DNA from: a virus
Length of the DNA: 50,107 bases
Direction: 5' to 3' (one strand)
Virus record (IMG/VR): IMGVR_UViG_3300035180_001610
Coordinates: 1 to 50,107 of that record
Positions within the stretch are counted from its first letter, which is position 1; the number at the start of each line of letters is the position of its first letter. Positions 16,375 to 49,724 of the stretch are shown here, piece after piece. Made by a program: the position numbers and the translations under genes. The notes under the pieces are model-generated. The model had not been told where the DNA came from and did no database searches. It saw nothing but the letters and a program-made list of their open reading frames with translations.

Positions 16375-18165
16375 TTATCTCAATTCTCTTAAATCAAATG
16401 TACGAACGCCATCTACGGTAATTCTTCCGTAAAAACGATTATTTACAATTTTCTTCGCGTATCTTGTCATTATTCCTTTAATCGGAGTAAAGTTGAACGG
16501 ATTATACATTGTAGGTGTTAATTGTAGAGGTACATACGGTGCGTAAATATAACCTGTGTCTAACAATGATGTTCCTTTGTGTCCCATTAACACTTGGTTA
16601 GCTGGGAAGTAAGGGTCACGGTAAACTTGGTAACGACCCGCTAATGTACCAACTCTTTCAATACCCATGTTGTATTGGTCTTGCTCAGGAGCCGCGTTTG
16701 ATACGTGGAAGTATTCCAAGTCATCAAATATAGCACTGATTTCAGAAGAAACAACAATCCAGTTAGCTCCACCTCTTAAGGTAGATTTGTGGATTTGAGC
16801 CGAAATTTGGTTGATAGCTGTAATCAATGTTTGATTCCAGTCTTTTTGAGTGTAAGGAACTGCACTTGAACCTAGACGTTTCCAACCATTGTAATCCCAA
16901 CGTAAGTTCCAAGCCGCACCTTTACGTAAATCTCTTAAGATTTCACGGTCGATTTCAGCCGCAACTTGTTCAGATAATAAAGCCGTTAATTCAGCTTCAG
17001 CATCAATGTTGTGGAACGCAGCAACGTCTTGTGCCATTTCTGGAGACCATTGAGCTCTTAATTTTCTTTCTGTTACAGAAACTGTAACTGACATAAGGTC
17101 AAAAGATACCTCACCAATTTTATCTTCAAATTCTAAATTCTTATATATTCTATAAGTGGATGTAAACGCATTGTTAACAGCTGTAGTAGAAGAGAATGTT
17201 GAACCTGTGTAACCGTCCATAGAACCACCACAAGTAATACATACTGGTACCTGTAAATCAATTTCTAAATAGATTTTACCTTCAGCATCACACAGATTGT
17301 CATATTGACCACCACCTGTTTTACTACCAGGGAAAGTTAATGTAGCGTTGTTGTTACCGTATTGTACAATACCTTTACCATATCTTTGAGTTACAACTCT
17401 GAATAAGTAAGGATTAGATGTGTTAGCCGAAGTTGTTGTGTTTCCAGCAGCACCATAGACAGTCAAATCAGATAAGAAAGATTCGTTATCCATTGGTTGA
17501 CCATCAGGTCCGATTAATTTACCAGCTCCATCAGATGCAAAACCTGACAAAACTACCAATACTTTTCTGTAATCAGATGAAGTATAAGCTGAACTAACTA
17601 ATGCGTCAGATAACCAAGATACAGTAGCAACATCAGCAGTGATTGCGGAAAATTGTCCTTTAGAATAGTCAAATAACCCTGGAGGGTCTAACGCTGGTTC
17701 GTTACCTTCGTAGAATCTATCGTAAAGGTCTTTAGTATTGTTATAGTCATAACCGCTGTTTGGTGTTTGACCCGCAGCTTGGTTTGGAGAACCATAAGGT
17801 GCGTAGTGTTCAGAAGTACCTGCTTGGTAAGCCTGAATGTTAGGTACAAAGTAAAACAATTTACCAATTGGTAAGTTCATTGCTTGTACTGAAACGATGT
17901 CATTCGCTAATAATTTAGAGAATACACGTCTAACAATTGGAAAAACCACTGTTTCAAATGCACCTGTATCAGATGTAGATGATGCTTCATTGATTAAGAA
18001 TGATGCTTGGTTTTCGTATAATTGTGCTACGTTTTCTCTCATGTGACCTTTAAGACCCTCTAAGAATCCTAATTTGTCCCATTTGTTGATTGTGTCTTCT
18101 TTGATAACTTTAAGGTGTTTTAACCCAATGTTACCAACAAGACCTGATTCTAATAATGCTCCCAT
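16375..18165 (-). CDS. Major capsid protein (T4 gp23-like)
   Basis: The 596-residue protein lies last in a gp17-20-21-22-23 order, the T4 head-gene order. Its N-terminal 60 residues are helical and end SFLINE-ASSTSD, an (I/L)xE-Ala junction at Glu60 equivalent to the T4 gp23 cleavage site near Glu65. The remainder has gp23-like parts: VFPIVRRVFSKLLANDIVSV near residue 75, a WSPEMAQDVAAFH helix, and a C-terminus with YAPYVPLQLTPT and MTRYAKKIVNNRFYG. The maturation site is predicted from the phage's own gp21-like protease motif. Codon use is more balanced than in neighbours, as expected for the most abundant virion protein. Confidence 0.9.
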   Translation of the reverse strand: MGALLESGLVGNIGLKHLKVIKEDTINKWDKLGFLEGLKGHMRENVAQLYENQASFLINEASSTSDTGAFETVVFPIVRRVFSKLLANDIVSVQAMNLPIGKLFYFVPNIQAYQAGTSEHYAPYGSPNQAAGQTPNSGYDYNNTKDLYDRFYEGNEPALDPPGLFDYSKGQFSAITADVATVSWLSDALVSSAYTSSDYRKVLVVLSGFASDGAGKLIGPDGQPMDNESFLSDLTVYGAAGNTTTSANTSNPYLFRVVTQRYGKGIVQYGNNNATLTFPGSKTGGGQYDNLCDAEGKIYLEIDLQVPVCITCGGSMDGYTGSTFSSTTAVNNAFTSTYRIYKNLEFEDKIGEVSFDLMSVTVSVTERKLRAQWSPEMAQDVAAFHNIDAEAELTALLSEQVAAEIDREILRDLRKGAAWNLRWDYNGWKRLGSSAVPYTQKDWNQTLITAINQISAQIHKSTLRGGANWIVVSSEISAIFDDLEYFHVSNAAPEQDQYNMGIERVGTLAGRYQVYRDPYFPANQVLMGHKGTSLLDTGYIYAPYVPLQLTPTMYNPFNFTPIKGIMTRYAKKIVNNRFYGRITVDGVRTFDLRELR

Positions 18166-20152: not shown

Positions 20153-20362
20153 TTATTCAATTACCTCATCAATTTTACTTTCCGATACTGAAGTAATTCT
20201 CCAATCATTTGTAAATCCTTGATACTTTTCTGTGACTTTAGCTTCCACATCGGTTACTGAGAATCCTTTAACAAGTTTCTCTTCTCTAATTTTTTTAATT
20301 TTTCCAGTATTATCATCAAGTAAATCGTACTGAATTTTTGCTACAAAATATTTTTCGTCCAT
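20153..20362 (-). CDS. DUF4494-like small protein
   Basis: The 69-residue product (KYFVAKIQYDLLDDNTGK, then EEKLVKGFSVTDVEAKV and WRITSVSESKIDEVI) has the strand-helix-strand pattern of DUF4494 proteins common in Bacteroidota genomes. It is placed six bases after the prohead protease gene and before a terminator. Its role in the phage head module is not known. The family name is recalled by pattern and should be treated as tentative. Confidence 0.55.
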   Translation of the reverse strand: MDEKYFVAKIQYDLLDDNTGKIKKIREEKLVKGFSVTDVEAKVTEKYQGFTNDWRITSVSESKIDEVIE

Positions 20363-20368
20363 AATTTA

Positions 20369-21091
20369 TTATTTTCCCAAATAATCGGTTAATTTTCTCA
20401 TTAAGTCAACTCCTTTAGTTTGAAATTCTGAATTTTCAACCGATTTATATTTTTTTTCTTCTTCTAAATTCTCTTCATATTTATTTCTATCGTTTGGATT
20501 AGTAAATAAATACGCTCCTGGAGTTGACGGAGATGATACCAAGTCAAAACAAATTAATTCAAAATCATCTTGAACTTCATTTCTTTCTCCAACTTTTTTT
20601 AACGAACCAACCCCTCTTGAAGAAACTCCCATTGTAACACCTTGTCTCATCAAATTAGCTGCTTGGTCTCCTTTAGTTGAAACAATACCTCGTTCATGAA
20701 ATCCTGGAGATGTTAACAATTTAAGTTTACCCATTAAGATGTTTTTATCCCACCATACTTCTGTGATAATATGGGACACTCTATCCAAGTCAATTAAAGA
20801 AGATTCGGGATGGTTAAGTTCTGAGGTAGATAGACCCTTCTCAATCGCCTTTTTATAATTTTCAGCTTCTCTTTTTAATATTTTTTCAGGATAAAATCTT
20901 CCGTTTCTATTTGGAGTATCATACTTCTGTAATACCGCATAAAATTCAAATGGATTTCTATAATCCATTTCAGATGCTTCTTTTAATATTTTGGCATTTC
21001 TAATATCTTTTGGTGATATCCAACCCGCGTCTGTTTCAACCAATATTCCATGGCCCACTTCACTTGCTTCTAAAATTCTTAATTGTTTCAT
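20369..21091 (-). CDS. Prohead core protein protease (T4 gp21-like, S80-type)
   Basis: The 240-residue protein has the serine protease hallmarks of the gp21 family: STSELNHPESS with the catalytic His near residue 94, and GVTMGVSSRGVGSL with the catalytic Ser near residue 157. FELICFDLVSSPSTPGA near residue 180 is also a family signature. It begins MKQLRILE-A, itself a possible self-cleavage site. It should mature the prohead by cutting capsid, scaffold and leader peptides after (L/I)xE. It lies between portal-side genes and scaffold, as in T4. Confidence 0.88.
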   Translation of the reverse strand: MKQLRILEASEVGHGILVETDAGWISPKDIRNAKILKEASEMDYRNPFEFYAVLQKYDTPNRNGRFYPEKILKREAENYKKAIEKGLSTSELNHPESSLIDLDRVSHIITEVWWDKNILMGKLKLLTSPGFHERGIVSTKGDQAANLMRQGVTMGVSSRGVGSLKKVGERNEVQDDFELICFDLVSSPSTPGAYLFTNPNDRNKYEENLEEEKKYKSVENSEFQTKGVDLMRKLTDYLGK

Positions 21092-21136: not shown

Positions 21137-21568
21137 TTATTCGTTTTTTGATGGTGAAAATTCAAAATATTTATTTTGAATTACATTTTCTTTAACAATA
21201 TTTTTAATAATTGTTTTAACCGATTCTTTAATTTCAGAACATTTAAAATCCATTTCATTATTGGTATATAAATTAACTTCTAAATTTAAAAAAGATTTTT
21301 TACCGTGTAAAATACCACTTGTTCTTAAGTCTAAATCAACAATACTTTGTTCTTTAAAAAGTTTATGATTTATGGAATTAAATACCGAATGTTTAATATC
21401 TCGACTTAGATTACAAACAACTCTATTCCAATTGTTGTGCTCAAATTTGGGAGTAACCCATGATTGAATGTTTATATATAATGATTTTAAATTTTTTGAA
21501 TCTACCGTTCCATATACAGTTTTAATTGGTGTATATAAATTTATCTTTACACTTTTTCCTTTTTTCAT
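21137..21568 (-). CDS. Unknown protein in head module (143 aa)
   Basis: The product starts MKKGKSVKINLYTPIKTVYG and has alternating strands, then LHGKKSFLNLEVNLYTNNEM near residue 90. No catalytic motif or family is recognised. It is divergent from the S21 gene, with about 100 bases between starts. It may be a small head protein or an early gene inserted into the head cluster. Confidence 0.55.
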   Translation of the reverse strand: MKKGKSVKINLYTPIKTVYGTVDSKNLKSLYINIQSWVTPKFEHNNWNRVVCNLSRDIKHSVFNSINHKLFKEQSIVDLDLRTSGILHGKKSFLNLEVNLYTNNEMDFKCSEIKESVKTIIKNIVKENVIQNKYFEFSPSKNE

Positions 21569-21651
21569 TAAGTTTCATATTGTCAATGTTTATTTGTTTA
21601 ACAAAATATAGGAAAAATAACCCCAATTGTCAAAAACTTTAAAAAAATCGT

Positions 21652-21659
21652 TATATTTG
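21652..21659 (+). promoter_or_regulatory. Bacteroidota-type -7 element TATATTTG for the S21 gene
   Basis: TATATTTG ends six bases before the ATG at 21666. The -33 TTTG is not perfect; ATTG lies about 22 bases upstream. If used, transcription would begin at or next to the start codon, giving a leaderless or nearly leaderless S21 message. Confidence 0.5.
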
Positions 21660-21665
21660 TATTAT

Positions 21666-21854
21666 ATGATAAAGATAGATGTAAAAAAAAATGGGATAGA
21701 AAAATCCCTAAAGATGTTAAAGTCAAAGGTGATTAAAACTAAACAAAATCAAATATTGTTTGGTAAAAAAGAATTTGTTAAAAAATCAATAAGGTTAAGA
21801 CAACAAAAATTAAAATCTTGTTATATTCAAAAAATAAAATCTAAATTAGATTGA
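21666..21854 (+). CDS. rpsU: Ribosomal protein bS21 homologue
   Basis: The 62-residue protein begins MIKIDVKKNGIEKSLKMLKS and ends RLRQQKLKSCYIQKIKSKLD. This matches bS21: a short beta strand, then three basic helices, with the KSCYIQ segment aligning to the flavobacterial KAAYIQ segment. In Bacteroidota bS21 helps hide the anti-Shine-Dalgarno end of 16S rRNA, and a Tyr in this C-terminal region (here Tyr53) is part of that contact. The open frame extends upstream, but the ATG at 21666 follows the promoter and gives the normal length. The gene is a lone plus-strand insertion inside the minus-strand head module, converging with 21846. Confidence 0.85.
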   Translation: MIKIDVKKNGIEKSLKMLKSKVIKTKQNQILFGKKEFVKKSIRLRQQKLKSCYIQKIKSKLD

Positions 21855-22547
21855 TTCGTCTAAGTTTTTTAATTTAAAAAAATTAAGTTGGTCAAATTTT
21901 TCTACTTTTAATTTGTCGATTGTTTCAGACAATTTTGTTTTAATTTCAGACTCTTTTTCATTTTCTAAAAGATTTGTTAATTTAACAATTGTATTTTTTT
22001 GTAAAGTTTTAAATTTTCTTTTAAGTAATGTAGTGTCTTCAGACATTAATTGAATAAATTCTTTTTTTGAAGATTCGTCAAGATTTTCAATATAACCATT
22101 CATTGTTTGGTTGGCGATGTTAATCATCGACTTTAATGGAAGATTAATTGACTCTTTTATGGGTTCAGGTTTACTTGAAACTAATATTTTAATTAAATTT
22201 TTCTTTGATTGAACTCTCTCCATTAAATCCAATTTATTTACATAAACCAAAGAATCAATATTAATATATTGATTTGACACATTTTTAGATGATATTCTTG
22301 TTGTTTTAATTGTTGGAGTTAATTTTTGTATTAAATTAATACCCTCTTCCAAAAAATCTTTTGCCTCTGTTTCAGTTAATCCTTGAGGTGTTGTTAATTG
22401 GTCATATAATGAATATAGACGTGACATGTTTTTATTGTTCAACACATCTTGTTTGAACTCTTTTAATGATTTCTTAAATTCCTGTTTATTATTATAGGAT
22501 TTTAATAAATTATTTTCAATAATAGATTTAATTTCTCCAAAAGTCAT
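21846..22547 (-). CDS. Helical protein adjacent to portal, possible prohead core protein
   Basis: The 233-residue product is nearly all helix and Lys/Glu/Leu rich (KKSLKEFKQDVLNNKNMSRL, SSKKEFIQLMSEDTTLLKRK). It sits between portal and protease, where T4 encodes the small core proteins gp67 and gp68, and may be a prohead core component. No motif proves this. Its 3-prime end overlaps the S21 gene by nine bases. Confidence 0.5.
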   Translation of the reverse strand: MTFGEIKSIIENNLLKSYNNKQEFKKSLKEFKQDVLNNKNMSRLYSLYDQLTTPQGLTETEAKDFLEEGINLIQKLTPTIKTTRISSKNVSNQYINIDSLVYVNKLDLMERVQSKKNLIKILVSSKPEPIKESINLPLKSMINIANQTMNGYIENLDESSKKEFIQLMSEDTTLLKRKFKTLQKNTIVKLTNLLENEKESEIKTKLSETIDKLKVEKFDQLNFFKLKNLDESI

Positions 22548-22570: not shown

Positions 22571-24385
22571 TTACGAGTTTAACAACTTATCCAATTCTTT
22601 TGATATTTCTCCTAAAGAATCTTGTCCTTGACTTAAATTTAAAAATCTTGAATGTTTATCAAAATTTTGTTCCAATAAAATATTCATGTTAGCTTTTTTA
22701 GATTCAGGAGTTATTTCAGCTGCGGGAGGTTCGGCAGGAGGGGGTGCGGCATCACCTGCTGGTGGAGCGGCATCAAAACCACCATCTGATGGTGCTCCTT
22801 CAGCCCCTGTAGTTGACGCATTTCCTGTACTACCTGAGGATTCCCCATATAATTTATCAATATTATCAAAAATTCCAGTTTTACTAATAACCGTAGGAGT
22901 TGCTTTAAGTTCTTCTCCAACCGCTCTTTCAAGTCTTTGTTGTTGTAAATCCAATTTAATTTCTTCATCAGACCATCCAAAAATATGTTCTTTGGCCCAT
23001 GTAGATGATGTGGCTTGAATACCGTTTCCTGGGTCAGCAACCAAATCTTTATATAATAACACTTTTTCTTTCCAAACATCAATTTTTAACAAATCTGCTT
23101 GAGTTGACGGATTAGTTAATCCTAATGTAAAATTTTGTAACTCGTCTTCAAACCCTAATAAAAATAAATGTACAATTGCGATTTTATTTAATTCGGAAAT
23201 CATACTTTTTTGAATTCTGTTTATTGTACGAGCAAATCTAATATCTTGTAACGCCAAATTTTTTCCATCACCAACTACTTCTTCAAACCCTAAAAATGCT
23301 TTAGGAACACGAAGAGCCGTTAATAATTTCTTTTGAATATATTCTATGTCTGCAATTTCTGATAGGTTTGTTGCTCCAGGTAAAGTCGTAATTGGGTCTG
23401 GTGCTGAAGGGTCACGGACAGGAATAAAATAATCTTGGTCAACCGCCATTTGGTTAAACCTCATATCCACGTTTCCTGTTTTAGAATCTACAATTTGTTC
23501 TCTTTTAAACTTGTTGGCTACACGGTTTACGTATGCCTCAACGTCATCGTCATTCATATTACCCACAAATACTTTAAACATTCTTCTTTCAGGGGCTCTT
23601 GATGTACGATAGATTAACATCGCATCTTCTGACAATAATAATTGTTTCCAAATACGTCTTGCTTTTTCTAACATAGATGTACCATAAGGAAGTTTTCGGT
23701 CGTCACCCAATAATCTAAAGTGAGCTATCTCCCATGATTGGAATTCCATGCTTTTATTTTTCCAAGTAAAATGAAGCGGTTTTTTATCAGTATCTTTAGT
23801 AATATCTATAGTAATATTGCCGGCAACACCAGATTCTCTACGTTCAATTTCAATTGTTGGTAATTGTTGACAACCAACAATTCCCTTTTCAGGGTCTAAC
23901 TTTAAATAAACAAAATTATCACCGTATTTGCAGGTATTTCTTGTCCACATTGATAAGTTAGTGTTAATATCCAAACTATTATTAAATAAATCGGCTAAGA
24001 CAGTTTTAATTCTTTTTGATTCAGAATAAATTTGTAAAATAAAACCATCTTCATTTGTTGTTGTAGATTCTTCGGAATATATGTCCAATGCTGCAGAGAT
24101 TTCTGGTGTATATTCCATACTTTCGTAATCATATTGGGCGGATAATCTTGATGGTTCATAATAAACTGCTTGAGTATATAAATTGTTTTCAACTTTTGCC
24201 CATTGATTTGTTAAATAAAATGTTTGTTGAGCTTGAAGTTTTTCTTTCTCGTAATCATCTCGATTTGGTGTACGTAAAAGTTCTTTTTTATCAAACTTAA
24301 AGGTTGGATAATCTTGATTCAATAGTGAATTTGGACCGAATGTTTTTGATAGTCTCTGCCAGACCGTTAGATTTTCTTGACTCAT
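22571..24385 (-). CDS. Portal vertex protein (T4 gp20-like)
   Basis: The 604-residue protein has family-typical segments: YEPSRLSAQYDYESMEYTPE near residue 75 followed by ISAALDIYSEESTT, then KYGDNFVYLKLDPEKG, LPYGTSMLEKARRIWKQLLL, EDAMLIYRTSRAPERRMF and ALRVPKAFLGFEE near residue 360. These match gp20 portals. The C-terminal 100 residues hold a Gly/Ala/Pro-rich linker and end SLGEISKELDKLL. It lies directly after the terminase gene, as in T4. The portal forms the dodecameric DNA gate of the head and nucleates prohead assembly. Confidence 0.9.
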   Translation of the reverse strand: MSQENLTVWQRLSKTFGPNSLLNQDYPTFKFDKKELLRTPNRDDYEKEKLQAQQTFYLTNQWAKVENNLYTQAVYYEPSRLSAQYDYESMEYTPEISAALDIYSEESTTTNEDGFILQIYSESKRIKTVLADLFNNSLDINTNLSMWTRNTCKYGDNFVYLKLDPEKGIVGCQQLPTIEIERRESGVAGNITIDITKDTDKKPLHFTWKNKSMEFQSWEIAHFRLLGDDRKLPYGTSMLEKARRIWKQLLLSEDAMLIYRTSRAPERRMFKVFVGNMNDDDVEAYVNRVANKFKREQIVDSKTGNVDMRFNQMAVDQDYFIPVRDPSAPDPITTLPGATNLSEIADIEYIQKKLLTALRVPKAFLGFEEVVGDGKNLALQDIRFARTINRIQKSMISELNKIAIVHLFLLGFEDELQNFTLGLTNPSTQADLLKIDVWKEKVLLYKDLVADPGNGIQATSSTWAKEHIFGWSDEEIKLDLQQQRLERAVGEELKATPTVISKTGIFDNIDKLYGESSGSTGNASTTGAEGAPSDGGFDAAPPAGDAAPPPAEPPAAEITPESKKANMNILLEQNFDKHSRFLNLSQGQDSLGEISKELDKLLNS

Positions 24386-24424: not shown

Positions 24425-26185
24425 TTAGGAACCAAATAACCATCCGTATTTTTGATAATCCGCCTTTGTTGCTTGTCCAACATTATTTAAACCACTATCT
24501 CTACCCATTTGAGGAATCATAGGATTAAAGAATTCTGACGAATTTTTGTTTTCGGTTACATTTGTTGCCCACGAGTTAATCATTGCTTTGGTATGGTTTG
24601 TAACTTTTTCTAATGATTGGAATGATTTTTCTGCAACATATAGTGCCATAGATACTCCCATAATACAGTCATCATGATGTCCTTTTTGGTGGTCAGGTCT
24701 TCCATTAATATAAATAAACGTATTCATTTCATTGTATAAACGATTTGAATATACTTTAAACCCGTGTCTTACTCCTTCTTCAAATGCTGATATAATTTGA
24801 ACCCTTTTTGAGTTAAAGTTAATTCCTGGAATTCTTTCATTAATCTTTGGGTCCCATTTCCATTTATTTGTGGTATCAACATTGTCGACATATAACCCCC
24901 CCTGATAACTTAATTCTTGTAATTTTCTTGACGTGGAAATACCCATACCACCTGTAATATCAATAACACAGTAAGCATTATACATTGTCCCCCATTTATA
25001 TGCAATTTCTGCCACAACATCTGGTGGAACTTTGGCGACATATTCTAACACCTGTTCCCTTTCGTCAAAATCGATGATTTGGATACATGAGAAGTCCTCA
25101 GAGTCACCTCTTGATACATCAACACCCATCACATACTTGTGTCCGTTTACCGGTTCTTTAAATATCCATAGTGAACCGCCCATTAGTTTGGCTTGTGGTT
25201 CACGTAAAGTATTCTTGGATATTTCTTGCATCAATTCAGATTCGAATACATTATCACCCGAACCTAAAAAGTCACATTCTAATTCCTGAGCAACTTTTCT
25301 TCTATCAAACTTCAATTTCTTAACCATACCTTCAAACCATGCGGAACATGGTTTGTATCCTTGTTTAATATAATCAGTTACAACAGAGTGGTCTCTTTCA
25401 TATGGATTTTCTATCGATAATTTAATAATATCTTTTTCAGAATATTCTTCTCTATTTAATAGAAAATGTACTAAGTCAGGAGTTTTAACCATATACAAAT
25501 CTTTTGTATATCTTGGGTCACGATACCAAAACATCTCAGATATTTTGAAATCATTCATATTCCTTAATGACTGGTCATAGATTTCATAGTAAATTTGGTC
25601 ATATCCGTTTGGTGTGGATACAACGATAACTTTACCACCTGTAGATAGGGACGCCATACAAGCTGACCAAAAATCTGAGTCCGCTTCGATAAACGCCGCC
25701 TCATCAAAGACAAGAATTGTAGGTGTATAACCCCTCAAGGCATCTTTTGATGTTGCAACGGCTTTAACTTCACAATTATTATTAAGTTTAAAATGTCTTT
25801 GTGAGTTTTTTTCTTTTGAAAATGAAATACCAACCCAATCTGGCCATTGTTCAGTAAAACCTCTAACTTTGTTAGCCATCTCCATTGACGTATCTAACTT
25901 GTTAGCAATAATAAGAATTTTTTCAGGTTTGTTTTTTTGGGCAAATGCCAATTTTTTTGATATCCAAGCGGCGGTTACGGTTGTTACACCCGCCTGACGA
26001 TACTTTAATGCAATGTTTTCATTGTATTTGTCGTAATCATCTATTAAACTAACTTGGTCGGGAAATAAATCTAATGGAACATACTTTGATACGGTATTAT
26101 CGTATGTTTGTAAATAAGTTCTAAGTGCGTAGGGAGTACTCCTTATACACTTTGTTAACTCGATAATTAATTGTTCTTTGTTCAC
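24425..26185 (-). CDS. Terminase large subunit (T4 gp17-like)
   Basis: The 586-residue protein has an ATPase domain with a Walker A-like YRQAGVTTVTAAW near residues 62-74 and Walker B ILVFDEAAFIE near residues 157-167, then SLSTGGKVIVVSTPNG as motif III. The C-terminal RNase H-like nuclease has GVDVSRGDSEDFSCIQI near residue 353 and HHDDCIMGVSMAL near residue 505. This is the complete motor/nuclease layout of gp17. The start codon appears to be GTG, six bases after the upstream stop. It packages DNA into the prohead through the portal encoded next. Confidence 0.92.
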   Translation of the reverse strand: MNKEQLIIELTKCIRSTPYALRTYLQTYDNTVSKYVPLDLFPDQVSLIDDYDKYNENIALKYRQAGVTTVTAAWISKKLAFAQKNKPEKILIIANKLDTSMEMANKVRGFTEQWPDWVGISFSKEKNSQRHFKLNNNCEVKAVATSKDALRGYTPTILVFDEAAFIEADSDFWSACMASLSTGGKVIVVSTPNGYDQIYYEIYDQSLRNMNDFKISEMFWYRDPRYTKDLYMVKTPDLVHFLLNREEYSEKDIIKLSIENPYERDHSVVTDYIKQGYKPCSAWFEGMVKKLKFDRRKVAQELECDFLGSGDNVFESELMQEISKNTLREPQAKLMGGSLWIFKEPVNGHKYVMGVDVSRGDSEDFSCIQIIDFDEREQVLEYVAKVPPDVVAEIAYKWGTMYNAYCVIDITGGMGISTSRKLQELSYQGGLYVDNVDTTNKWKWDPKINERIPGINFNSKRVQIISAFEEGVRHGFKVYSNRLYNEMNTFIYINGRPDHQKGHHDDCIMGVSMALYVAEKSFQSLEKVTNHTKAMINSWATNVTENKNSSEFFNPMIPQMGRDSGLNNVGQATKADYQKYGWLFGS

Positions 26186-31409: not shown

Positions 31410-32873
31410 TTAATTTTTTTTTGATGAGAATGATTTAGCTAATTGTATTAAATCTTTTTCCGATAATTTACCGTCTGGAGTTAAATTATTGTCGGATTGA
31501 AAAGATTTGATAATTTTTTCAGTCTCATCTCCAAATTTTCCGTCATTACCAAATTTAGGTAATAAATACCCTAAACTAATTAAGGCTTTTTGTATTTTTG
31601 CAACATCATCATCGTAAGATATCTTTGAATCCGATTTTTTTAAATTTGTAAAATTTTTACCTGATTTTGTGATAGTTTCTAAATCTGATAAAAAATTTTT
31701 TTCATCCTCCTTTGGAACTGTTTTAGTATTTTTTTTTGACCCCGTAAATATTTTATCCGCGTTATCTAAAAGGTCTTTTAAATGTTTTCCTCTTGGTAAT
31801 CCTATATGGACATGAGTTGTACTTTCATGACCTATCCATTCTGAAATTTCTCCAATATAGTCACCAATTTTAACAACGTCATCTTTTTTCAATTTAACAT
31901 TTTTTAAATGAGTATAAAAAATATCAGGAAATTTCCCTGTACCTTTGATAGACACTTGAGTTCCAAATATTTTACCTGAGTTTTTTCCGGTATCTCTAAT
32001 TTTAGTCACAACACCATCAGTATAAGAATTTACTACTGTTCCTGGAGGTGAAAATATATCCCAAGCATTGTCAGATTGCCAATTACCAAGGGCTCGACCA
32101 GAATGGTTTTTAGGTCCGTTTACTAAATCAGTTTTAAAAGTTCCGCCAATATTTGTTGTGGATTCTTTAATTGATAATACTTTATCGGTTTCTTTGTCTG
32201 CCGTGTTAAACAATTTTTCAATATGACCTGACCTTCTTAAAAATTTAAACACAAGATTTTCATAAGACAATTCACCATCTTTTTCCAATCCTGACTTTCT
32301 ATAGTCCTTTAATTTTTCTTTGATTTTTTCCAAATCTTTACCTTCATCAATTGCCGTATTAATCTTTTCCGTCCAACATTTAATTTTATTTGTTAGGACT
32401 TTTTTATCGACATTATTCTTAAATTTTTTTGGTTCAGATATCCATTCATTATTCATAACGGAATATACTCCCGAACTATAATGAGATTCTTCAACATCTT
32501 GAGCATATAGTTCAACATCGTATCCAAAGATTCGGATATCATGTTTATCGTTAAACACTTGTTTTTTTAAATTAAATAATTCCTTATATAGTTCCGATTG
32601 ATTTTCATATTGTTGTAAATCAACAATTACGTGTAAATCAAAATCTGAGAACTCGGACCAATTGTAATTTGCTAAAGAGCCTGTAAGATGAATATCTTCA
32701 ACAAAAACCTCATCACCCAAATATTCAATAAATTTTTCTGCAATACGTGAAAGAGCCTCTCTAACCTTTGGTATCATAACCGATTGGTCAGGTTTTTTAG
32801 GGTTTTCCCAAACTTTAGGGTTTAAAGATTCTTTAAGTGAAAAACTATTAAGGATTTTTTGAAAATTATTCAT
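31410..32873 (-). CDS. Three-domain protein: nucleotidyltransferase, M23-like, peptidoglycan-binding
   Basis: The 487-residue protein begins with ILNSFSLKE-S, an LxE leader-type end. Residues 35-230 have the polymerase-beta-like nucleotidyltransferase pattern LTGSLANYNWSEFSDFDLHV. Residues 255-365 resemble M23 peptidases: NWQSDNAWDIFSPPGTVV, then FYTHLKNVKL and THVHIGLPRG. The first zinc His of typical M23 enzymes is not seen (Asn in SDNAWD), so activity is uncertain. Residues 420-480 form a peptidoglycan-binding repeat (KIQKALISLGYL, FGDETEKIIKSFQ). This could be a packaged or tail enzyme acting on the cell wall, with a puzzling nucleotide-transfer domain. Confidence 0.7.
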   Translation of the reverse strand: MNNFQKILNSFSLKESLNPKVWENPKKPDQSVMIPKVREALSRIAEKFIEYLGDEVFVEDIHLTGSLANYNWSEFSDFDLHVIVDLQQYENQSELYKELFNLKKQVFNDKHDIRIFGYDVELYAQDVEESHYSSGVYSVMNNEWISEPKKFKNNVDKKVLTNKIKCWTEKINTAIDEGKDLEKIKEKLKDYRKSGLEKDGELSYENLVFKFLRRSGHIEKLFNTADKETDKVLSIKESTTNIGGTFKTDLVNGPKNHSGRALGNWQSDNAWDIFSPPGTVVNSYTDGVVTKIRDTGKNSGKIFGTQVSIKGTGKFPDIFYTHLKNVKLKKDDVVKIGDYIGEISEWIGHESTTHVHIGLPRGKHLKDLLDNADKIFTGSKKNTKTVPKEDEKNFLSDLETITKSGKNFTNLKKSDSKISYDDDVAKIQKALISLGYLLPKFGNDGKFGDETEKIIKSFQSDNNLTPDGKLSEKDLIQLAKSFSSKKN

Positions 32874-34066: not shown

Positions 34067-36082
34067 ATGAACGACTTAATGGACGACGACGACAAAATGA
34101 TGAACAAAAAAACTAAATCATCTGGAGAATCTAACACACCTGTATTGGACAATTTCAGTAGAGATTTAATGAAACTAGCAGAAGCTGGAAAACTTGACCC
34201 CGTTATTGGTCGCGACAGAGAAATCTTAAGGATTGCTCAAATTCTTTCTCGTAGAAAGAAAAATAACCCAATTATCCTTGGAGAACCTGGTTGTGGTAAA
34301 ACCGCACTTGTTGAAGGATTGGCAATCAAGATTGTAAATGGTGATTGTCCCCGTAACTTGGTAGATAAACGTATTGTTAATCTTGACCTTACATCAGTTG
34401 TTGCCGGTACAAAGTATCGTGGACAATTTGAAGAACGAATGAAAGTGATTATCGAAGAACTTCAATCAAACCCAAACATCATTGTATTCATTGATGAGAT
34501 TCACACATTGGTTGGTTCAGGAAATTCTTCAGGTTCAATGGATGGTTCAAATATCTTCAAACCCGCATTGGCACGTGGGGAAGTTCAATGTATCGGAGCA
34601 ACTACATTAGATGAGTTCCGTAAAAACATTGAAAAAGATGGAGCATTAGAACGTAGATTCCAAAAGGTAGTCGTTGAACCATCATCAATTGATGAAACAA
34701 TTCAAATCCTTAAGAATGTTCGTGACAAATACGAAGATTTCCACAAGGTGAATTACAGCGATGAGGTAATTGAGACTTGTGTTAAGTTGGCAGACCGTTA
34801 TATCACAGACCGTGAGTTCCCTGATAAAGCATTTGACATTTTGGATGAGGTTGGAGCAAGAATGCAAACCGAGTTGAAAATACCTGAAGCAATTGAGGAG
34901 TTAAAAAAACAAGCGGCAGAAATCAAACTTCAAAAAATGGAAGTGGTTAAAAAACAAAACTACGAACAAGCTGCAGAGCTTCGTGATAAAGAAAAAAAAT
35001 TGTTACTGAAGTTGGAGCAAGAAAAAATTAAGTTTGATGAAAAGTTGTCCAAAGAAAAACAACTCATATTATTGGAACATGTTTATGATGTTGTATCAAA
35101 CATGACAAAAATTCCTGTAAATAAAATGAGTGTGGATGATACCAAAGCTTTGTTGGACTTGGACAAAACTTTGATTGACAAAGTTATTGGCCAAAACAAT
35201 GCGGTAGTTAAGATTGCAAAAGCAATCAAAAGAAATCGTTTGGGTATAAAAGACCCTAATCGTCCAATCGGGTCATTTGTGTTCTTAGGTTCAACAGGTG
35301 TTGGTAAGACATACCTGGCAAAACAATTGGCAAAAGAAATGTTCGGTTCCGAAGACGCTCTCATTCGTGTCGACATGTCAGAATACCAAGAGAAACACAC
35401 AATATCCAAATTAATTGGAGCACCTCCAGGATACGTAGGTTATGAAGAAGGCGGATTGTTAACTGAAAAAGTTAAAAACAAACCTTACTCTGTAATCTTA
35501 TTTGATGAGATTGAAAAAGCTCACAAAGATGTATTCACCATCCTACTTCAGGTTTTAGATGACGGTCATGTAACCGACAGTTTGGGACGTAAGATTAACT
35601 TCAAAAATACCTTGATTATCTTGACATCAAACTTGGGGGTTAAAAAACTACAAGACTTTGGGGCTGGTATTGGTTTCTCAAGTAATTCATATAGTAATGA
35701 AGAAGCTAAGAAACAAATGTTAATGAAGGAAATGAAAAACTTCTTCTCACCTGAGTTCATTAATCGTATTGATGATACGGTTGTATTTAACTCATTGACT
35801 AAAGAAGACATCAAAAAGATTACCGACATTGAATTAAAGAAGTTGGTGACTCGTCTTGTAGATATGAAGTACAAAATCACATATGACGAATCTTTGGTTG
35901 AGTATTTATCAAAGATTGGATACGATGAATTGTACGGAGCTCGTCCATTGAAGAGAGCTATTCAGGATAAGGTTGAAGACCTATTGTCAGAAGAAGTTCT
36001 AACGGGTAAGATGATTGAAGGTAAGACCTATCACATCAAAGTAGTAGGTGAAAACGTGGTGGTCCAAAAGAAAGGACGATAA
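34067..36082 (+). CDS. Clp-family AAA+ unfoldase (ClpA/ClpC-like, no N-domain)
   Basis: The 671-residue protein has two AAA+ modules. D1 has Walker A GEPGCGKTA near residue 72 and Walker B VFIDEIHTLVGSG. A short middle region has a UVR motif (VVKKQNYEQAAELRDKEK). D2 has Walker A GSTGVGKTYLAK near residue 407, VILFDEIEKAH and the arginine region FINRIDD. The loop GAGIGFSSNS near residue 533 has the IGF tripeptide that docks ClpC/ClpA on ClpP. Bacterial ClpC is about 820-860 residues; the adaptor-binding N-domain is missing here and replaced by 25 acidic/basic residues. No ClpP is in the window, so it would use host ClpP. GC content looks higher than neighbours. Confidence 0.9.
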   Translation: MNDLMDDDDKMMNKKTKSSGESNTPVLDNFSRDLMKLAEAGKLDPVIGRDREILRIAQILSRRKKNNPIILGEPGCGKTALVEGLAIKIVNGDCPRNLVDKRIVNLDLTSVVAGTKYRGQFEERMKVIIEELQSNPNIIVFIDEIHTLVGSGNSSGSMDGSNIFKPALARGEVQCIGATTLDEFRKNIEKDGALERRFQKVVVEPSSIDETIQILKNVRDKYEDFHKVNYSDEVIETCVKLADRYITDREFPDKAFDILDEVGARMQTELKIPEAIEELKKQAAEIKLQKMEVVKKQNYEQAAELRDKEKKLLLKLEQEKIKFDEKLSKEKQLILLEHVYDVVSNMTKIPVNKMSVDDTKALLDLDKTLIDKVIGQNNAVVKIAKAIKRNRLGIKDPNRPIGSFVFLGSTGVGKTYLAKQLAKEMFGSEDALIRVDMSEYQEKHTISKLIGAPPGYVGYEEGGLLTEKVKNKPYSVILFDEIEKAHKDVFTILLQVLDDGHVTDSLGRKINFKNTLIILTSNLGVKKLQDFGAGIGFSSNSYSNEEAKKQMLMKEMKNFFSPEFINRIDDTVVFNSLTKEDIKKITDIELKKLVTRLVDMKYKITYDESLVEYLSKIGYDELYGARPLKRAIQDKVEDLLSEEVLTGKMIEGKTYHIKVVGENVVVQKKGR

Positions 36083-36306: not shown

Positions 36307-37146
36307 TTAAAACACTGACCGATTTCTCCAACCATGTTCAACCATTTCTTTATAGTGTAATTTATGACCAAGTTTATCAATCATTTTCTTACCCATGTCG
36401 ATACCGTTAATTACGTCTTCAACAACGACGTATTCATGGGTTGTGTGATATTGGTAGTATCCAATTGAAAAGTTAATACAAGAGAAGTCAAACTTACCTC
36501 TTAACGCATATACGTCAGTATAAGGGTGAACCATGTATCTCATTCTATTTCCCATACCTTCTGTTAATACCTCATTACAAGCATCAAAAAATTCAGTCTC
36601 TCTGTCAAATAAAACTTGACCAAAACATTTTTCAGTAATCATCCAGTTTTCAGGTGCGTCAAATTGAATACCATATCCAACATTATCAAAAAATGATGAA
36701 TCCGCCATCATTGAACCTTTACAACCGGTTTCTTCAGATACAAAGAACGCGGCCTTTACATACGGCAATTCTTTTAATAATCTAAGACATGCAAATACAC
36801 CACATTTATCATCACCACCAATACCTGTTGGTTCTCCATCATTATCATATGCCTTATATGATAATTTAATTTCTTTTTGCGCATTTGGCAACATTTCCTC
36901 TCGAATATTAATATCGTTAAGTCCATGTACCGTATCGGTATGTGAAATTACACATGGGAAATAAAATCCTTCAGGAAGTTCTTTGGATTCTTGTTTTGTT
37001 GCGTAGACGTTATTATATTCGTCCACATAGTGTTCAATATTATTTTCAGTTAACCAGTTAACCAAAAACTCAACCATTCTGTCCTCGCGATACGTTGCCG
37101 TAGGTACGCTCAAAACGGCTTTAAGTAATTCTAAATTTTGTTCCAT
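36307..37146 (-). CDS. M20/M28-type zinc aminopeptidase-like protein
   Basis: The 279-residue protein has the di-zinc peptidase set: VISHTDTVHG near residue 67, GIGGDDKCGVFACL near residue 108, FFVSEETGCKGS near residue 134, QFDAPEN near residue 161 and TTHEYVVVED near residue 243. These include all metal and catalytic acid residues expected for PepT-like M20 enzymes. At 279 residues it lacks the dimerisation (lid) domain that brings M20 enzymes to 400 residues. It has its own host-type promoter, pointing to early cytoplasmic action, perhaps peptide recycling or removal of a host peptide. Confidence 0.75.
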   Translation of the reverse strand: MEQNLELLKAVLSVPTATYREDRMVEFLVNWLTENNIEHYVDEYNNVYATKQESKELPEGFYFPCVISHTDTVHGLNDINIREEMLPNAQKEIKLSYKAYDNDGEPTGIGGDDKCGVFACLRLLKELPYVKAAFFVSEETGCKGSMMADSSFFDNVGYGIQFDAPENWMITEKCFGQVLFDRETEFFDACNEVLTEGMGNRMRYMVHPYTDVYALRGKFDFSCINFSIGYYQYHTTHEYVVVEDVINGIDMGKKMIDKLGHKLHYKEMVEHGWRNRSVF

Positions 37147-39062: not shown

Positions 39063-39479
39063 GGGGGTGTTTTTGGATTTGACAGGTATTGGCTGAAGAC
39101 AAAGGGCACGTGGAGACTGAATTAATCTCCTTAAAAACTGATTCACAAAAACAATCGGCGACGTTTTATCGAAAATGGAAACTCTTGGTTTACTAAGAGG
39201 TTCTGAAGTTACTGTATCCTAAGAGGTTTACGGAAACGGGGGGTCGGTGGACATATAACCTAGCAACAGAAGTCCTTAAGGTGTGGTTTCTACCCGAAAA
39301 GGAACAAACGGTCTCGTTCAGAGTGCTACCGTAACAAAAGTGAACTCAACACAGTTATTGGTAACGATGTCAAAATAGGAACCAAATATTTCGGAAGGTA
39401 TCACAAACCTTGACCTAAACGTGTAGTCCTTCTCTGACAGGATATTATGGACCGGAGTTCGAGCCTCCGCACCTCCACC
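39063..39479 (+). ncRNA. ssrA: Transfer-messenger RNA (tmRNA)
   Basis: The 5-prime end GGGGGTG pairs with CACCTCC at the 3-prime end (one G-U pair) to form the tRNA-like acceptor stem. TTGGATTTGACAGG follows the 5-prime strand, as in bacterial tmRNAs, and CGGAG-TTCGAGC-CTCCG is a perfect T arm. Only ACC of the CCA end is encoded. The length of about 417 nt is normal. The tag region begins near 39157. The GGC frame (39157) encodes GDVLSK...TVS, and the GCG frame (39158-39196) encodes ATFYRKWKLLVY with its stop in a hairpin (CTCTT/AAGAG). Neither ends in the usual ALAA. A strong terminator follows. Confidence 0.9.
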
Positions 39480-44534: not shown

Positions 44535-44586
44535 AATTGTTTATTTTAAATATTTAATTTTAATAATTCTTATAATCTACGTAATG

Positions 44587-44658
44587 TAGTCCCGTCTGGA
44601 TTCGAACCAGAAATAGAAGATTAGAAATCTACTGTGATATCCCTTTCACTACGGAACC
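44587..44658 (-). tRNA. tRNA-Arg(TCT)
   Basis: The minus strand folds into a cloverleaf with acceptor GGTTCCG/CGGGACT (wobbles at two positions), T arm CTGG-TTCGAAT-CCAG and anticodon loop TTTCTAA giving anticodon TCT. CCA is not encoded. The anticodon stem has one mismatch, so the fold is slightly weak. TCT-Arg decodes AGA, the favoured Arg codon in this AT-rich genome. Confidence 0.85.
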
Positions 44659-44882
44659 ATATTGTAGTATTTATTATTTGGCTTGCCCCACCTGAGATTA
44701 CGGTGGGTAAATTTATCTTCTATTTTCATATTGAAAATACGTGACGGTCTTACCCGCGCATAAAAGTCAAACATACTTGGTAGATTTGTTACGTCTATTA
44801 TCCAAGAACCCCCTCTATAAAGTCGTGGAAGGTGACAACTATACCATTTATCAGTAACGGTACCAAAACTACTGAGTATCTC
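44649..44882 (-). CDS. Open frame with RGGSW motif, no start codon visible
   Basis: A 77-codon open frame with protein-like composition reads DKWYSCHLPRLYRGGSWIID and later YARVRPSRIF, ending inside the tRNA-Arg D arm. RGGSW is typical of the C-terminal part of formylglycine-generating-type domains. No ATG, GTG or TTG lies in frame upstream of Met37. An ATG in another frame at 44890 (MSKRYS) would need a -1 shift. It may be a decayed fragment, a frameshifted gene, or a sequencing error. Several hairpins in this stretch could instead mean structured RNA. Confidence 0.3.
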   Translation of the reverse strand, partial: EILSSFGTVTDKWYSCHLPRLYRGGSWIIDVTNLPSMFDFYARVRPSRIFNMKIEDKFTHRNLRWGKPNNKYYNMVP

Positions 44883-44901
44883 TTACTCATTTGTTGTTAA
44901 G

Positions 44902-45003
44902 TCATTTATTATAATAATATCTATCATATAAATATCTTTCATATTCTTCTGAGTTAATAAACTCTTCATAAATTTCTTGATGTATGTCTATGAAGTTTTC
45001 CAT
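44902..45003 (-). CDS. 33-residue small acidic protein
   Basis: The frame MENFIDIHQEIYEEFINSEE then YERYLYDRYYYNK is Tyr/Glu-rich and helical. Its ATG lies 13 bases after a TATATTTG -7 element. It is the only complete frame between the tRNA-Arg region and the 45087 gene. It could be a small regulator or anti-host peptide. Support is the promoter and coherent composition. Confidence 0.4.
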   Translation of the reverse strand: MENFIDIHQEIYEEFINSEEYERYLYDRYYYNK

Positions 45004-45016
45004 ATTTTTTTTTTAA

Positions 45017-45024
45017 CAAATATA
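45017..45024 (-). promoter_or_regulatory. Bacteroidota-type -7 element TATATTTG (minus strand)
   Basis: The element precedes the 33-residue gene and probably drives the unit that includes tRNA-Arg. The -33 TTTG is not at the standard distance, so this is a partial match. Confidence 0.4.
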
Positions 45025-45065
45025 CAAACTTATTTCAAATAGTAACTTTTTTATTATAAAATTAC

Positions 45066-45073
45066 TATTTATT
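45066..45073 (+). promoter_or_regulatory. Putative late promoter octamer TATTTATT
   Basis: The octamer lies 13 bases before the ATG at 45087 and faces that gene; the opposite strand has an early-type element 40 bases away. Confidence 0.45.
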
Positions 45074-45086
45074 ATAAAAAAGTTTT

Positions 45087-46145
45087 ATGAAAATAATGGT
45101 AACAGAACAACAATTAAGAGTTTTAAATAAATTTTTAATAACAGAAGGTGATATTGATTTTACTAAACCGTATATAGTTGTAACACCAGCAAAACTTGGG
45201 GAGAAAACAGTTCATATAAAAGGTTTTATTACTTTTTCAGTTGCTTCGTCTGAAATGGCGGTAAATGCCGTTACAACCGCAATAAATACAATATTAGGAG
45301 ACCTTAAAAATAAAGGGTATTCAACAAAAGGTTTGAGTTTTTTAAATATATTTGGAGGAGCCAGCAATTATTTAAGTGGAGCAATGAAAGCCGATAGAAT
45401 AATGACAAATGTTGAAGGATTTTTTAAGTCACTTAAGGTTGCCGAAAATAACCTACCAAGTTACCCTGGTGAAGCAAACAAAACAAAAAATTTGGGGTAT
45501 GCTCAAGCAAGGTGTCAGGTTTTAAAAAACGCATTAATAAAAAATTTCCCTCCCACAGCAACTGCAGAGATAAGAGAACCAACTTCGTTTGTAATGGACA
45601 CTGGAGGAGTTATTGATTCAAAAAGAGACTTAACCAAATATCCTGTTCCAGGTCAAATGGCGATGTTTGCCGCTACGGTTGATATACAACCTATAACTAG
45701 TATAAAGACATATAACGAAATAGGCTCAAATAATATTCAGACTGGGTCTTATTATTGTAATGGTAAAAACTCACTTGGGAGTGGTTCTGATGCCACTACT
45801 TATGAAGAACAATGTAGAAATCTAAGCCAATATCCGAAGATTACGGATGGAAAATGTATGTCAGGGTTTGAAATTAAATGGGCTGCAAATATGGTAGGTA
45901 ATCCAGATGTAATTCCTATTATGAGATGGAATATTTTTTGGCAGGGGAGTGGTAATCTTTCTCCTTATAAGGTAACAAGAGTAATGTATAAAAATGAATG
46001 GTCCTCTATGGCAAAAATTCCTGAAGGTACGACAAGTATTCATGACCCAGCTTTAAAATATTTTATGGGACTTAAGGAAAATGACCCAAATGGTGGAACG
46101 GCTTGGAAAAAATTTTTTGTTAAACCATACGGAGTAGCCAAGTAA
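45087..46145 (+). CDS. Virion-type protein with LxE leader, possible OmpA-like fold
   Basis: The 352-residue product begins MKIMVTEQQLRVLNKFLITE, a leader-type peptide ending ITE-G. The middle part has GEANKTKNLGYAQARCQVLK near residue 135, which resembles the OmpA-like peptidoglycan-binding pattern (N-x-x-L-x-x-x-R-A). A Cys-containing C-terminal half (GSYYCNGKNS, GKCMSGFEIK) follows. Late octamer and leader support packaging or a tail role. Function is not certain. Confidence 0.5.
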   Translation: MKIMVTEQQLRVLNKFLITEGDIDFTKPYIVVTPAKLGEKTVHIKGFITFSVASSEMAVNAVTTAINTILGDLKNKGYSTKGLSFLNIFGGASNYLSGAMKADRIMTNVEGFFKSLKVAENNLPSYPGEANKTKNLGYAQARCQVLKNALIKNFPPTATAEIREPTSFVMDTGGVIDSKRDLTKYPVPGQMAMFAATVDIQPITSIKTYNEIGSNNIQTGSYYCNGKNSLGSGSDATTYEEQCRNLSQYPKITDGKCMSGFEIKWAANMVGNPDVIPIMRWNIFWQGSGNLSPYKVTRVMYKNEWSSMAKIPEGTTSIHDPALKYFMGLKENDPNGGTAWKKFFVKPYGVAK

Positions 46146-46169
46146 TAACTTACAACAAAAAATTTTTAA

Positions 46170-46742
46170 TTAAAATTTTATATAAGTTAAATTTACAAAA
46201 TTAACAAATATAAAATATTTACCTGTTATTGATTTTTTAACGGAACATGAAATTAACCCACTGAACCCAAAAACATTTGTAAAATTACTCTCAATAGTTT
46301 TTTTATGCGGTGGAGAATTTAACCAAGATTTAACACTAATTGATGCAAACTCTTGATATGTTGATAATTTATAGTTTTCAAAAACATTAAGTATCTCAGC
46401 ATACGAATTCATATCTAACATATCTAAAGTCAATTCCGAGACTTTATTTATAACACATATTTCTTTGTATATTTTTTCATTAATAACTTTGTTGGTTCTA
46501 TCGTATTTTGGGTGAAAACCTAAATCAGATTTGGCATTAAGTAATGCATGTTTTGATGTAATTTCTTGATTAACTACTTTAGATTTTGACAATACACCAA
46601 TACCAATATTTTTTCTATGTTCATTAATTTGTTTAATAATTTCAGATTCAAGAATATCGTAATTAATAACACCGTTTTCAATCTTTTGAGAGTACCCAAA
46701 AAAAGAAAAAATAAACACAATAAACACAATAATATAATTCAT
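46170..46742 (-). CDS. Secreted CAP-domain protein
   Basis: The 190-residue protein has a signal peptide (MNYIIVFIVFIFSFFGYSQ) with a flavobacterial-type end. The mature part matches the CAP/SCP superfamily: IIKQINEHRKNIGIG, QEITSKHALLNAKSD, and SVKSWLNSPPHKKTIESNFT with the conserved His and Trp. CAP proteins are secreted and bind lipids or act on extracellular targets. A phage gene of this kind with an early promoter may alter the host envelope. Confidence 0.75.
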   Translation of the reverse strand: MNYIIVFIVFIFSFFGYSQKIENGVINYDILESEIIKQINEHRKNIGIGVLSKSKVVNQEITSKHALLNAKSDLGFHPKYDRTNKVINEKIYKEICVINKVSELTLDMLDMNSYAEILNVFENYKLSTYQEFASISVKSWLNSPPHKKTIESNFTNVFGFSGLISCSVKKSITGKYFIFVNFVNLTYIKF

Positions 46743-46770
46743 AACTTTTATTTTTAGATTGTTTGTTTAA

Positions 46771-46801
46771 CAAAGATATGGTATTTAATTCAATTGGCAA
46801 T
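46771..46801 (-). promoter_or_regulatory. Bacteroidota sigma-A promoter for the CAP gene
   Basis: On the minus strand ATTG (46798-46801), a 19-base spacer and TATCTTTG (46771-46778) match the consensus with one change in the -33 box. The leader is about 28 bases. Confidence 0.6.
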
Positions 46802-46821
46802 GAAGATTATTCATTATTTTG

Positions 46822-46894
46822 CGGTCCCGACGGGATTCGAACCCGTATCTCGCACCGTGACAGGGTGGAATTGTAACCATTCAACCACGGGACC
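46822..46894 (-). tRNA. tRNA-Asp(GTC)
   Basis: The minus strand has acceptor GGTCCCG/CGGGACC, T arm ACGGG-TTCGAAT-CCCGT and anticodon loop CTGTCAC with anticodon GTC. All arms are well paired. CCA is not encoded. Confidence 0.93.
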
Positions 46895-46895
46895 A

Positions 46896-46936
46896 AAAGT
46901 TTGTGAGACCCGCTCCTCACTCTGAACTTGTACTTT
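46896..46936 (-). other. Structured spacer between tRNA-Asp and tRNA-Glu
   Basis: An inner GTGAG/CTCAC stem with an eight-base loop is enclosed by AAAGT/ACTTT arms. The rest of the 113-base spacer up to 47007 has a T-arm-like AAGG/CCTT stem with a seven-base loop but no complete cloverleaf. It may be a processing signal or decayed tRNA. Confidence 0.35.
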
Positions 46937-47007
46937 GTTCTATTAAGCGTTTATTTAGTAAAGTCAAGGTATGAACCCTTATCGTAGTAAAGCTTGGTTG
47001 GCTATAG

Positions 47008-47079
47008 TAGTCCCACCGGGAATCGAACCCGACTTTCCAGGATGAAAACCTGACGACCTAACCGATAGTCGATGGGACC
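47008..47079 (-). tRNA. tRNA-Glu(TTC)
   Basis: The minus strand shows acceptor GGTCCCA/TGGGACT, anticodon stem CAGG/CCTG with loop TTTTCAT (anticodon TTC) and T arm TCGGG-TTCGATT-CCCGG. CCA is not encoded. GAA is the favoured Glu codon in this genome. Confidence 0.93.
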
Positions 47080-47085
47080 AAAAAT

Positions 47086-47148: not shown

Positions 47149-47154
47149 TTGTTG

Positions 47155-47227: not shown

Positions 47228-47232
47228 ATATG

Positions 47233-47306: not shown

Positions 47307-47318
47307 ATGTTTTTTTTG

Positions 47319-48647: not shown

Positions 48648-49214
48648 TTACTTTTTAATTTTACTTTCACATTTTGAACAAAGTTCGTCACCATTTCCTT
48701 TAGTTAATGCACAATTGTCGGTAGTACAATGGTCAAGACCTGATAGGTGAGCGTATTCGTGTATTAAAGTTCTTTTTAAAGTTTTGGTACTAACTATGGC
48801 CGTAGTACCGTTAAATATTGAGCAACCTCTAATAGATGGGTATTTTTTATTTAATGTTAATTTTTCATTAGTGATGTAAAAAACTTTTTTATCTGAAATT
48901 TTCAAGTGGTCAATAGTTTTTTCACATTTAAGTCCATTTGAGTTGTAAAACTCATCATTTAAATCAATAGACCCGTCTATAGTACACTGTATATTGTAAT
49001 ACCCCTCAAGAATGTTTTCAGCTTTTACTAAATCAGATTGATTAAAATCTCCTAAACCTTTAATGTAAACCACATCGTCTACGTCATTAAAAATACCAAT
49101 ACTTATTTTGGGAAAATCCCAATTGTGGTTTTCTAAATATTTACAACCTTGTTTAGTTGCCTCAATTATTATGGCTCCCCATAAAACGTATAATAAAAAT
49201 GTGTAAATCTTCAT
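48648..49214 (-). CDS. Archaemetzincin-like metalloprotease, membrane-anchored or secreted
   Basis: The 188-residue protein has an N-terminal hydrophobic segment (FLLYVLWGAIIIEA). Residues 152-168 read HEYAHLSGLDHCTTDNC and are followed by a CSKC pair near residue 179. This is the archaemetzincin signature HExxHxxGxxxC-x4-C plus CxxC, with a shortened spacer and Leu for the usual Met. These enzymes are zinc aminopeptidases. An early -7 element (TATATTTG) ends four bases before the ATG. A phage copy could process host envelope or periplasmic proteins. Confidence 0.8.
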   Translation of the reverse strand: MKIYTFLLYVLWGAIIIEATKQGCKYLENHNWDFPKISIGIFNDVDDVVYIKGLGDFNQSDLVKAENILEGYYNIQCTIDGSIDLNDEFYNSNGLKCEKTIDHLKISDKKVFYITNEKLTLNKKYPSIRGCSIFNGTTAIVSTKTLKRTLIHEYAHLSGLDHCTTDNCALTKGNGDELCSKCESKIKK

Positions 49215-49229: not shown

Positions 49230-49724
49230 TTAATTAATTTTAAATGCACTTTTTAGAGGTCTTTTTATTTTTATAGAATCCTCATAGTTACCAATCACAA
49301 CACCATCTTTAATTGTAAAGGCGTGACCAGTAACCAACATAAAGAATGTCCCAACAGGGTTTTGTTTTGTAAACGTGCCTACAGTCATTTTACGGTTAAC
49401 TTTTACTCCTTTTACCTTAACCTCATAGTCCAAAGTTTGTACTCCAAAATTGTTAATTTTACCAACACACTTAACTTTTTTGTAGTTTATTTGTGTTCTA
49501 TTTTTTGCAAGTTCTTGCATTTTAAATGATGTACCATATGTTCCTTGTCGGTCTTTACGTCCAAATTTTTCTTTAACATATTTATGAGCGGTATCATAAG
49601 GTATCTCAAAACAAGATGCAAACGCTCTAACAACACAATCTCTATTTTCTTGTTTTGCGATTACAGAATCATCGTAATTTTTAATTGCCTTTGATGTAGA
49701 TTCATATGGTAATATGTTTTTCAT
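49230..49724 (-). CDS. Papain-like cysteine peptidase fold protein
   Basis: The 164-residue protein has ENRDCVVRAFASCFEIPYD near residue 27 with a candidate nucleophile Cys30, and FMLVTGHAFTIKDGVVIGNY near residue 128 with a candidate His134 and a following Asn. This Cys/His arrangement is typical of small papain-like proteins found in phages. No signal peptide is seen, so it would act in the cytoplasm. The promoter is nearly leaderless, pointing to early expression. Confidence 0.65.
   Translation of the reverse strand: MKNILPYESTSKAIKNYDDSVIAKQENRDCVVRAFASCFEIPYDTAHKYVKEKFGRKDRQGTYGTSFKMQELAKNRTQINYKKVKCVGKINNFGVQTLDYEVKVKGVKVNRKMTVGTFTKQNPVGTFFMLVTGHAFTIKDGVVIGNYEDSIKIKRPLKSAFKIN

Follow-up and report, generated by a model that had tools for sequence, protein, structure and literature searches.

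A bS21 gene inside the head block

The window (the whole stretch of DNA that we analysed, 50,107 nucleotides from IMG/VR virus record IMGVR_UViG_3300035180_001610) contains a T4-type head block with a short gene on the opposite strand, as follows:

16375..18165, minus strand: major capsid protein, T4 gp23 type (context)
20369..21091, minus strand: prohead core protease, T4 gp21 type (context)
21137..21568, minus strand: divergent neighbour, hypothetical protein of 143 amino acids
21626..21640, plus strand: conserved upstream block ATTGTCAAAAACTTT, which holds TTG at the -33 position
21652..21659, plus strand: -7 element TATATTTG (TAHHTTTG), six bases from the ATG
21666..21854, plus strand: phage bS21 gene, 62 amino acids plus the stop codon TGA
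21846..22547, minus strand: convergent neighbour, hypothetical protein of 233 amino acids, which fits the published bS21_CN (fam498)
22571..24385, minus strand: portal protein, T4 gp20 type (context)
24425..26185, minus strand: large terminase (TerL), T4 gp17 type (context)

The open reading frame at 21666-21854 (plus strand) translates to MIKIDVKKNGIEKSLKMLKSKVIKTKQNQILFGKKEFVKKSIRLRQQKLKSCYIQKIKSKLD. Its closest matches in the PDB are bS21 chains (7jil from Flavobacterium johnsoniae first, and also 9i5v), with nearly all residues aligned. In IMG/VR, 254 stretches encode relatives of this bS21, and dN/dS across 29 distinct phage copies is about 0.10. An earlier, sequence-only reading had described a complete 62-residue bS21 homologue on the opposite strand within the T4-type head module, and the coordinates of the reading frame, the PDB matches, the relatives, and the dN/dS all bear this out. 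The HMM search that it proposed gave a more mixed result: PF01165 (Pfam S21) matches with an E-value of 1.5e-5, but the score of 25.1 bits is below the curated cut-off of 27 bits. Among 10 other members of the clade, nine scored 28.2-46.0 bits and one scored 22.9 bits. Searches of NCBIfam and PHROGs with the window's bS21 gave no match. AlphaFold predicts helices at residues 10-23 and 26-61 (mean pLDDT of 80, with a pTM of only 0.38), and a Foldseek search of the PDB with this model found no match, which is uninformative for a helical protein of 62 residues. In a tree, all of the phage copies form one clade (support 100/99) beside the Flavobacteriales-type bS21, in an alignment of only 64 columns that gives little resolution. 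On sequence grounds, the protein is a genuine Bacteroidota-type bS21. We also considered a TTG start at 21627 (75 amino acids) and rejected it because the reading frame would cross the conserved promoter.

Counts of loci are based on 80 of the 254 stretches, which were fetched from IMG/VR. The convergent neighbour overlaps the end of bS21 by 9 nt in 80/80 of these loci, and the divergent neighbour precedes bS21 in 78 of the 80. Both neighbours are absent from the bS21-less immuto-like phages. A search for clade members that lack bS21 found none, and the loci with only a neighbour gene all ended at the edge of a contig. A blastn search with the head block found no match among annotated phages. 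The T4-like Flavobacterium phage immuto (NC_055915) has a homologous prohead protease (best 43% identity), a T4-type head block, and the motif TATTTAT upstream of its genes, but it has no bS21, neither neighbour gene, and no near-leaderless TAHHTTTG promoters. A DUF4494 protein (20153-20362, minus strand) adjoins the prohead protease in the window; in immuto, the annotated DUF4494 gene is elsewhere in the genome.

Chen et al. (2022, PMC9723584) have already described the bS21 gene, its genomic place, and the conserved equivalent of Tyr54 in freshwater Bacteroidota phages. The huge phages of clades a-e in that study, with predicted Bacteroidetes hosts, have the same opposite-strand bS21 between two hypothetical genes in a TerL-portal-protease-MCP block; their bS21 is likewise Flavobacteria-like, apart from host bS21, and aromatic at position 54, with no bS21 in the outgroups. 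That study proposed a late-stage takeover of the ribosome and names no promoter, leader, or Shine-Dalgarno (SD) feature. What we add is the loss of the SD, the conserved near-leaderless promoter, the 9-nt overlap with the neighbour, and the excess of leaderless starts.

In F. johnsoniae bS21, the aromatic residue Y54 stacks on the 16S tail (PMC9723584, PMC9976891; the contacts of the anti-SD pocket are taken from these papers). The phage protein is about 35% identical to its F. johnsoniae homologue (McNutt et al. 2023, PMC9976891) and has the same C-terminal YIQ segment: our alignments place KSCYIQ against the host's KAAYIQ, as the earlier reading had it, and residue Y53 of the window's protein is the equivalent of Y54. 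Every intact phage copy examined keeps an aromatic residue here, usually Y and in rare cases H or F. The segment LKSKVIKTKQNQ is invariant in the 29 distinct phage copies, and Flavobacterium proteins have their own invariant KRYKRKFDKTGTVRQLR instead. Because the N-terminal helix lies over the anti-SD at the mRNA path and the C-terminal helix is the anchor (PMC9723584), the phage protein combines a host-like anchor with an mRNA side that is not host-like. The idea that the phage bS21 changes anti-SD exposure is not supported by this pattern, since the residue that stacks on the 16S tail is kept (Y/H/F) in all intact copies; PMC9723584 concluded likewise. One copy (L249, near 12996) is frame-shifted in its C-terminal third, by a sequencing error or because the copy is decaying, and was left out of the evidence.

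A near-leaderless, SD-free start

The -7 element TATATTTG at 21652-21659 ends six bases before the ATG, exactly where the sequence-only reading had put it. In nearly all of the 47 distinct upstream sequences of the clade, the pattern is ATTGTCAAAAAcTTT, ATATTTG, 6-8 bases, and ATG. ATATTTG is kept at a gap of 6-8 in 41 of the 47, and the upstream block (TTGTCAAAA or TAGTCAAAA) is also kept in 41/47. We consider the near-leaderless promoter of bS21 to be real and conserved. As the TAHHTTTG of F. johnsoniae spans -12 to -5 (PMC6847099), transcription is predicted to start at 21664 or 21665, which would give a leader of 1-2 nt. The gene was also said to be leaderless, which holds only in part: in leaderless genes of the Flavobacterium type, TAHHTTTG ends 4-5 nt before the ATG, and the gap for bS21 is 6 nt, so we describe it as near-leaderless.

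In the window, the box matches TAHHTTTG exactly; in most relatives its first T is replaced by G or A, and in the most divergent subclade (L257, L264, and L271) the box is TATTTAT, the late-type motif. In view of these replacements, any assignment of the box to a sigma factor is tentative. For the window and most relatives, we rejected a late-promoter reading of the box because TATTTGT does not recur at the spacings of the late motif. In the divergent subclade, the box may be a late promoter.

No SD is present before the phage bS21 genes, whose strongest pairing with the 16S tail is -5.1 kcal/mol. Flavobacterium-type rpsU forms duplexes of -19.6 to -24.7 kcal/mol in 80/80 fetched genes. These energies were computed with what we take to be the sequence of the 16S tail. 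SD-like elements are no more frequent in the phage than in the host (0.6% versus 0.9% of genes). In F. johnsoniae, rpsU is autoregulated via an extended SD that is read by ribosomes lacking bS21 (PMC9976891); the phage gene differs from it in having neither SD nor leader, and the mRNA-side segments of the two proteins differ as well. Since the phage gene has no SD, we infer that it lies outside this feedback, and more bS21 should lower the translation of host rpsU further. The contrast predicts that expression of the phage bS21 shuts down translation of host rpsU while its own translation continues.

Leaderless starts in phages with and without bS21

Other genes in the window have leaderless starts, with the element 4 nt before the ATG:

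36307..37146, minus strand: leaderless phage gene, peptidase-like; TATATTTG, 4 nt, ATG
48648..49214, minus strand: leaderless phage gene, hypothetical protein; TATATTTG, 4 nt, ATG
49230..49724, minus strand: leaderless phage gene, phrog_3754; TATCTTTG, 4 nt, ATG

In 620 kb of sequence from the lineage there are 106 TAHHTTTG promoters; for 33 genes the gap to the ATG is exactly 4 nt, and for none is it 3 or 5. The promoters with a gap of 4 also show a TTTG-like -33 element. Counted by gene family, 15/61 are leaderless in the phage lineage, and 400 kb from a Flavobacterium genome gives 3/69 (p = 0.0008). Here the longest open reading frame defined each gene start, and the contigs are fragments. 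The low share in Flavobacterium agrees with the 5.5% of leaderless genes in F. psychrophilum (PMC9723704). In the literature that we searched, we found no description of the near-leaderless, SD-free bS21 signal or of the leaderless style of the bS21 phages.

A second motif, TATTTAT, precedes many phage genes, among them the head-block genes of the window and the convergent neighbour (16 nt before its ATG). It is a putative phage late promoter of the T4-like kind. Across the loci L297-L376 and L192-L271, the bS21 and immuto-like lineages both have the motif, but its distance to the ATG differs. Around TerL in the immuto-like phages, it peaks at 17-18 nt before the ATG and is within 9 nt in 0/267 cases; in the TerL regions of the bS21 clade, many copies are at 4-6 nt (these loci are partly redundant). 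Across whole contigs the contrast is smaller, with 23/77 families in the bS21 clade versus 6/58 in the immuto-like phages (p = 0.005). The bS21 phages have gene starts fused to promoters; leaders are retained in relatives that lack bS21 but share the late-type motif. TATTTAT also lies 5 nt before the ATG of the reading frame at 31410-32873 (minus strand), which joins a nucleotidyltransferase-like domain, an M23 peptidase, and a peptidoglycan-binding domain in a single protein.

We compared the share of TAHHTTTG promoters with a gap of 3-6 (pooled, at most 60 nt from the ATG) across phages whose bS21 presence or absence was checked by profile. This share is 36/85 for the bS21 clade; four further huge phages that encode bS21 reach 21/79, the host has 6/62, and Bacteroidota phages lacking bS21 have 1/58. 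The other bS21 huge phages differ from the bS21-less Bacteroidota phages (p = 3e-5) and show only mild enrichment against the host alone (p = 0.009). For PTm1, with a genome of 225 kb and no bS21, the share is 0/15. Overall, bS21 phages have an excess of leaderless promoters and bS21-less Bacteroidota phages have almost none. This association is correlative: it spans about four independent bS21 lineages (LR756502 and LR745206 share 69 reading frames and are related, which sets this number) and eight bS21-less groups, with 150 kb sampled per extra huge phage. Genome size and lineage are confounders, and PTm1 controls for them only partly. The bS21 genes of the other huge phages are without this near-leaderless promoter, and in LR756501 an SD precedes the gene. 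The earlier suggestion that a phage bS21 could shift initiation toward phage or leaderless messages has the correlative excess in its favour; the change in anti-SD exposure that was suggested with it is not supported.

Proposed role and alternatives

We propose that a T4-like huge-phage lineage captured bS21 and kept it under purifying selection. During infection, the protein would be made from its near-leaderless, SD-free message, presumably with no need of the ribosomes lacking bS21 through which host rpsU is regulated by feedback. It would then enter the host's 30S subunit in place of the host's bS21, where the conserved aromatic residue would keep the 16S tail tucked away and the mRNA-side segment LKSKVIKTKQNQ might favour phage messages that are leaderless or have very short leaders. 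Of these steps, only the leaderless preference is new, and its support is correlative. Taken whole, from the replacement of host bS21 through the hidden anti-SD and the escape from rpsU feedback to the favouring of leaderless messages, the proposal is evenly balanced between being right and wrong. We are more doubtful of the specific claim that the phage bS21 gives Bacteroidota ribosomes a preference for leaderless messages and that bS21 phages evolved leaderless starts to exploit this, which we put forward tentatively.

A simpler explanation is one of dosage or replacement, in which the phage bS21 only ensures that ribosomes do not lack the protein in the heavy late burst, or makes up for host bS21 that has been degraded. 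Messages would then not be told apart, and the leaderless promoters would be unrelated. The retention of the residue that sequesters the anti-SD is consistent with this, as is the correlative nature of the leaderless association. Also, when the bS21 of F. johnsoniae ribosomes is truncated at its C-terminus, less protein is made from an SD-less message (PMC9976891), which implies that full bS21 helps any SD-less message. However, simple supply would not need an mRNA-side segment that never varies within the phage clade and differs from the invariant one of the host, and the leaderless association appears in more than one lineage, so we regard this explanation as possible without favouring it. 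We assign a similarly limited probability to the view of bS21 as a late gene whose role is confined to late protein synthesis. A published metatranscriptome reports it as co-expressed with virion genes (PMC9723584), and the divergent subclade has the late-type TATTTAT as its box. But the window and most relatives have ATATTTG with TTG at -33, unlike the TATTTAT of the head genes, and two genes on opposite strands cannot share a sense transcript. No strand is given in the description of the published read counts, and late minus-strand RNA from the convergent neighbour would run antisense through bS21.

Two further explanations have little probability. If the phage bS21 exposed the anti-SD, ribosomes would be redirected to SD-bearing phage messages, and truncated bS21 or Y54A does raise the use of SDs in F. 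johnsoniae (PMC9976891). We consider this highly improbable because the aromatic residue is kept and, with SD-like elements as rare as they are in phage and host, there is nothing to redirect to. It is also very unlikely that the phage protein is a decoy that stays out of ribosomes and has rpsU RNA or something else as its target. For the bS21 of other bacteria, extraribosomal roles have been reported. Here, however, the two parts of the fold are conserved, as are the C-terminal residues that face the rRNA, and the bS21 of Pelagibacter phage HTVC008M, an independent capture in a phage whose host belongs to another phylum, does enter the ribosomes of E. coli that expresses it (Mizuno et al. 2019, PMC6375957), the only phage bS21 for which we know of such a demonstration.

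The question of why bS21 is the ribosomal protein that phages carry most often can now be put in a concrete, testable form. If the leaderless preference is true, we would have a clear example of specialised ribosomes built by a virus, with the class of message switched through the swap of one ribosomal protein.

The window has other genes related to translation or next to such genes. A phage tmRNA lies at 39063-39479 on the plus strand (Rfam RF00023, 96.5 bits); its tag is EKEQTVSFRVLP, without the usual LAA ending, and Rfam also finds a tmRNA in three relatives (L189, L168, and L179). A homologue of an ATP-dependent protease (34067-36082, plus strand; phrog_4871, E = 1e-238) adjoins translation-related genes. 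Six tRNA genes lie at 44586-47391 on the minus strand, and three relatives (G002, G005, and G008) have about 24-27.
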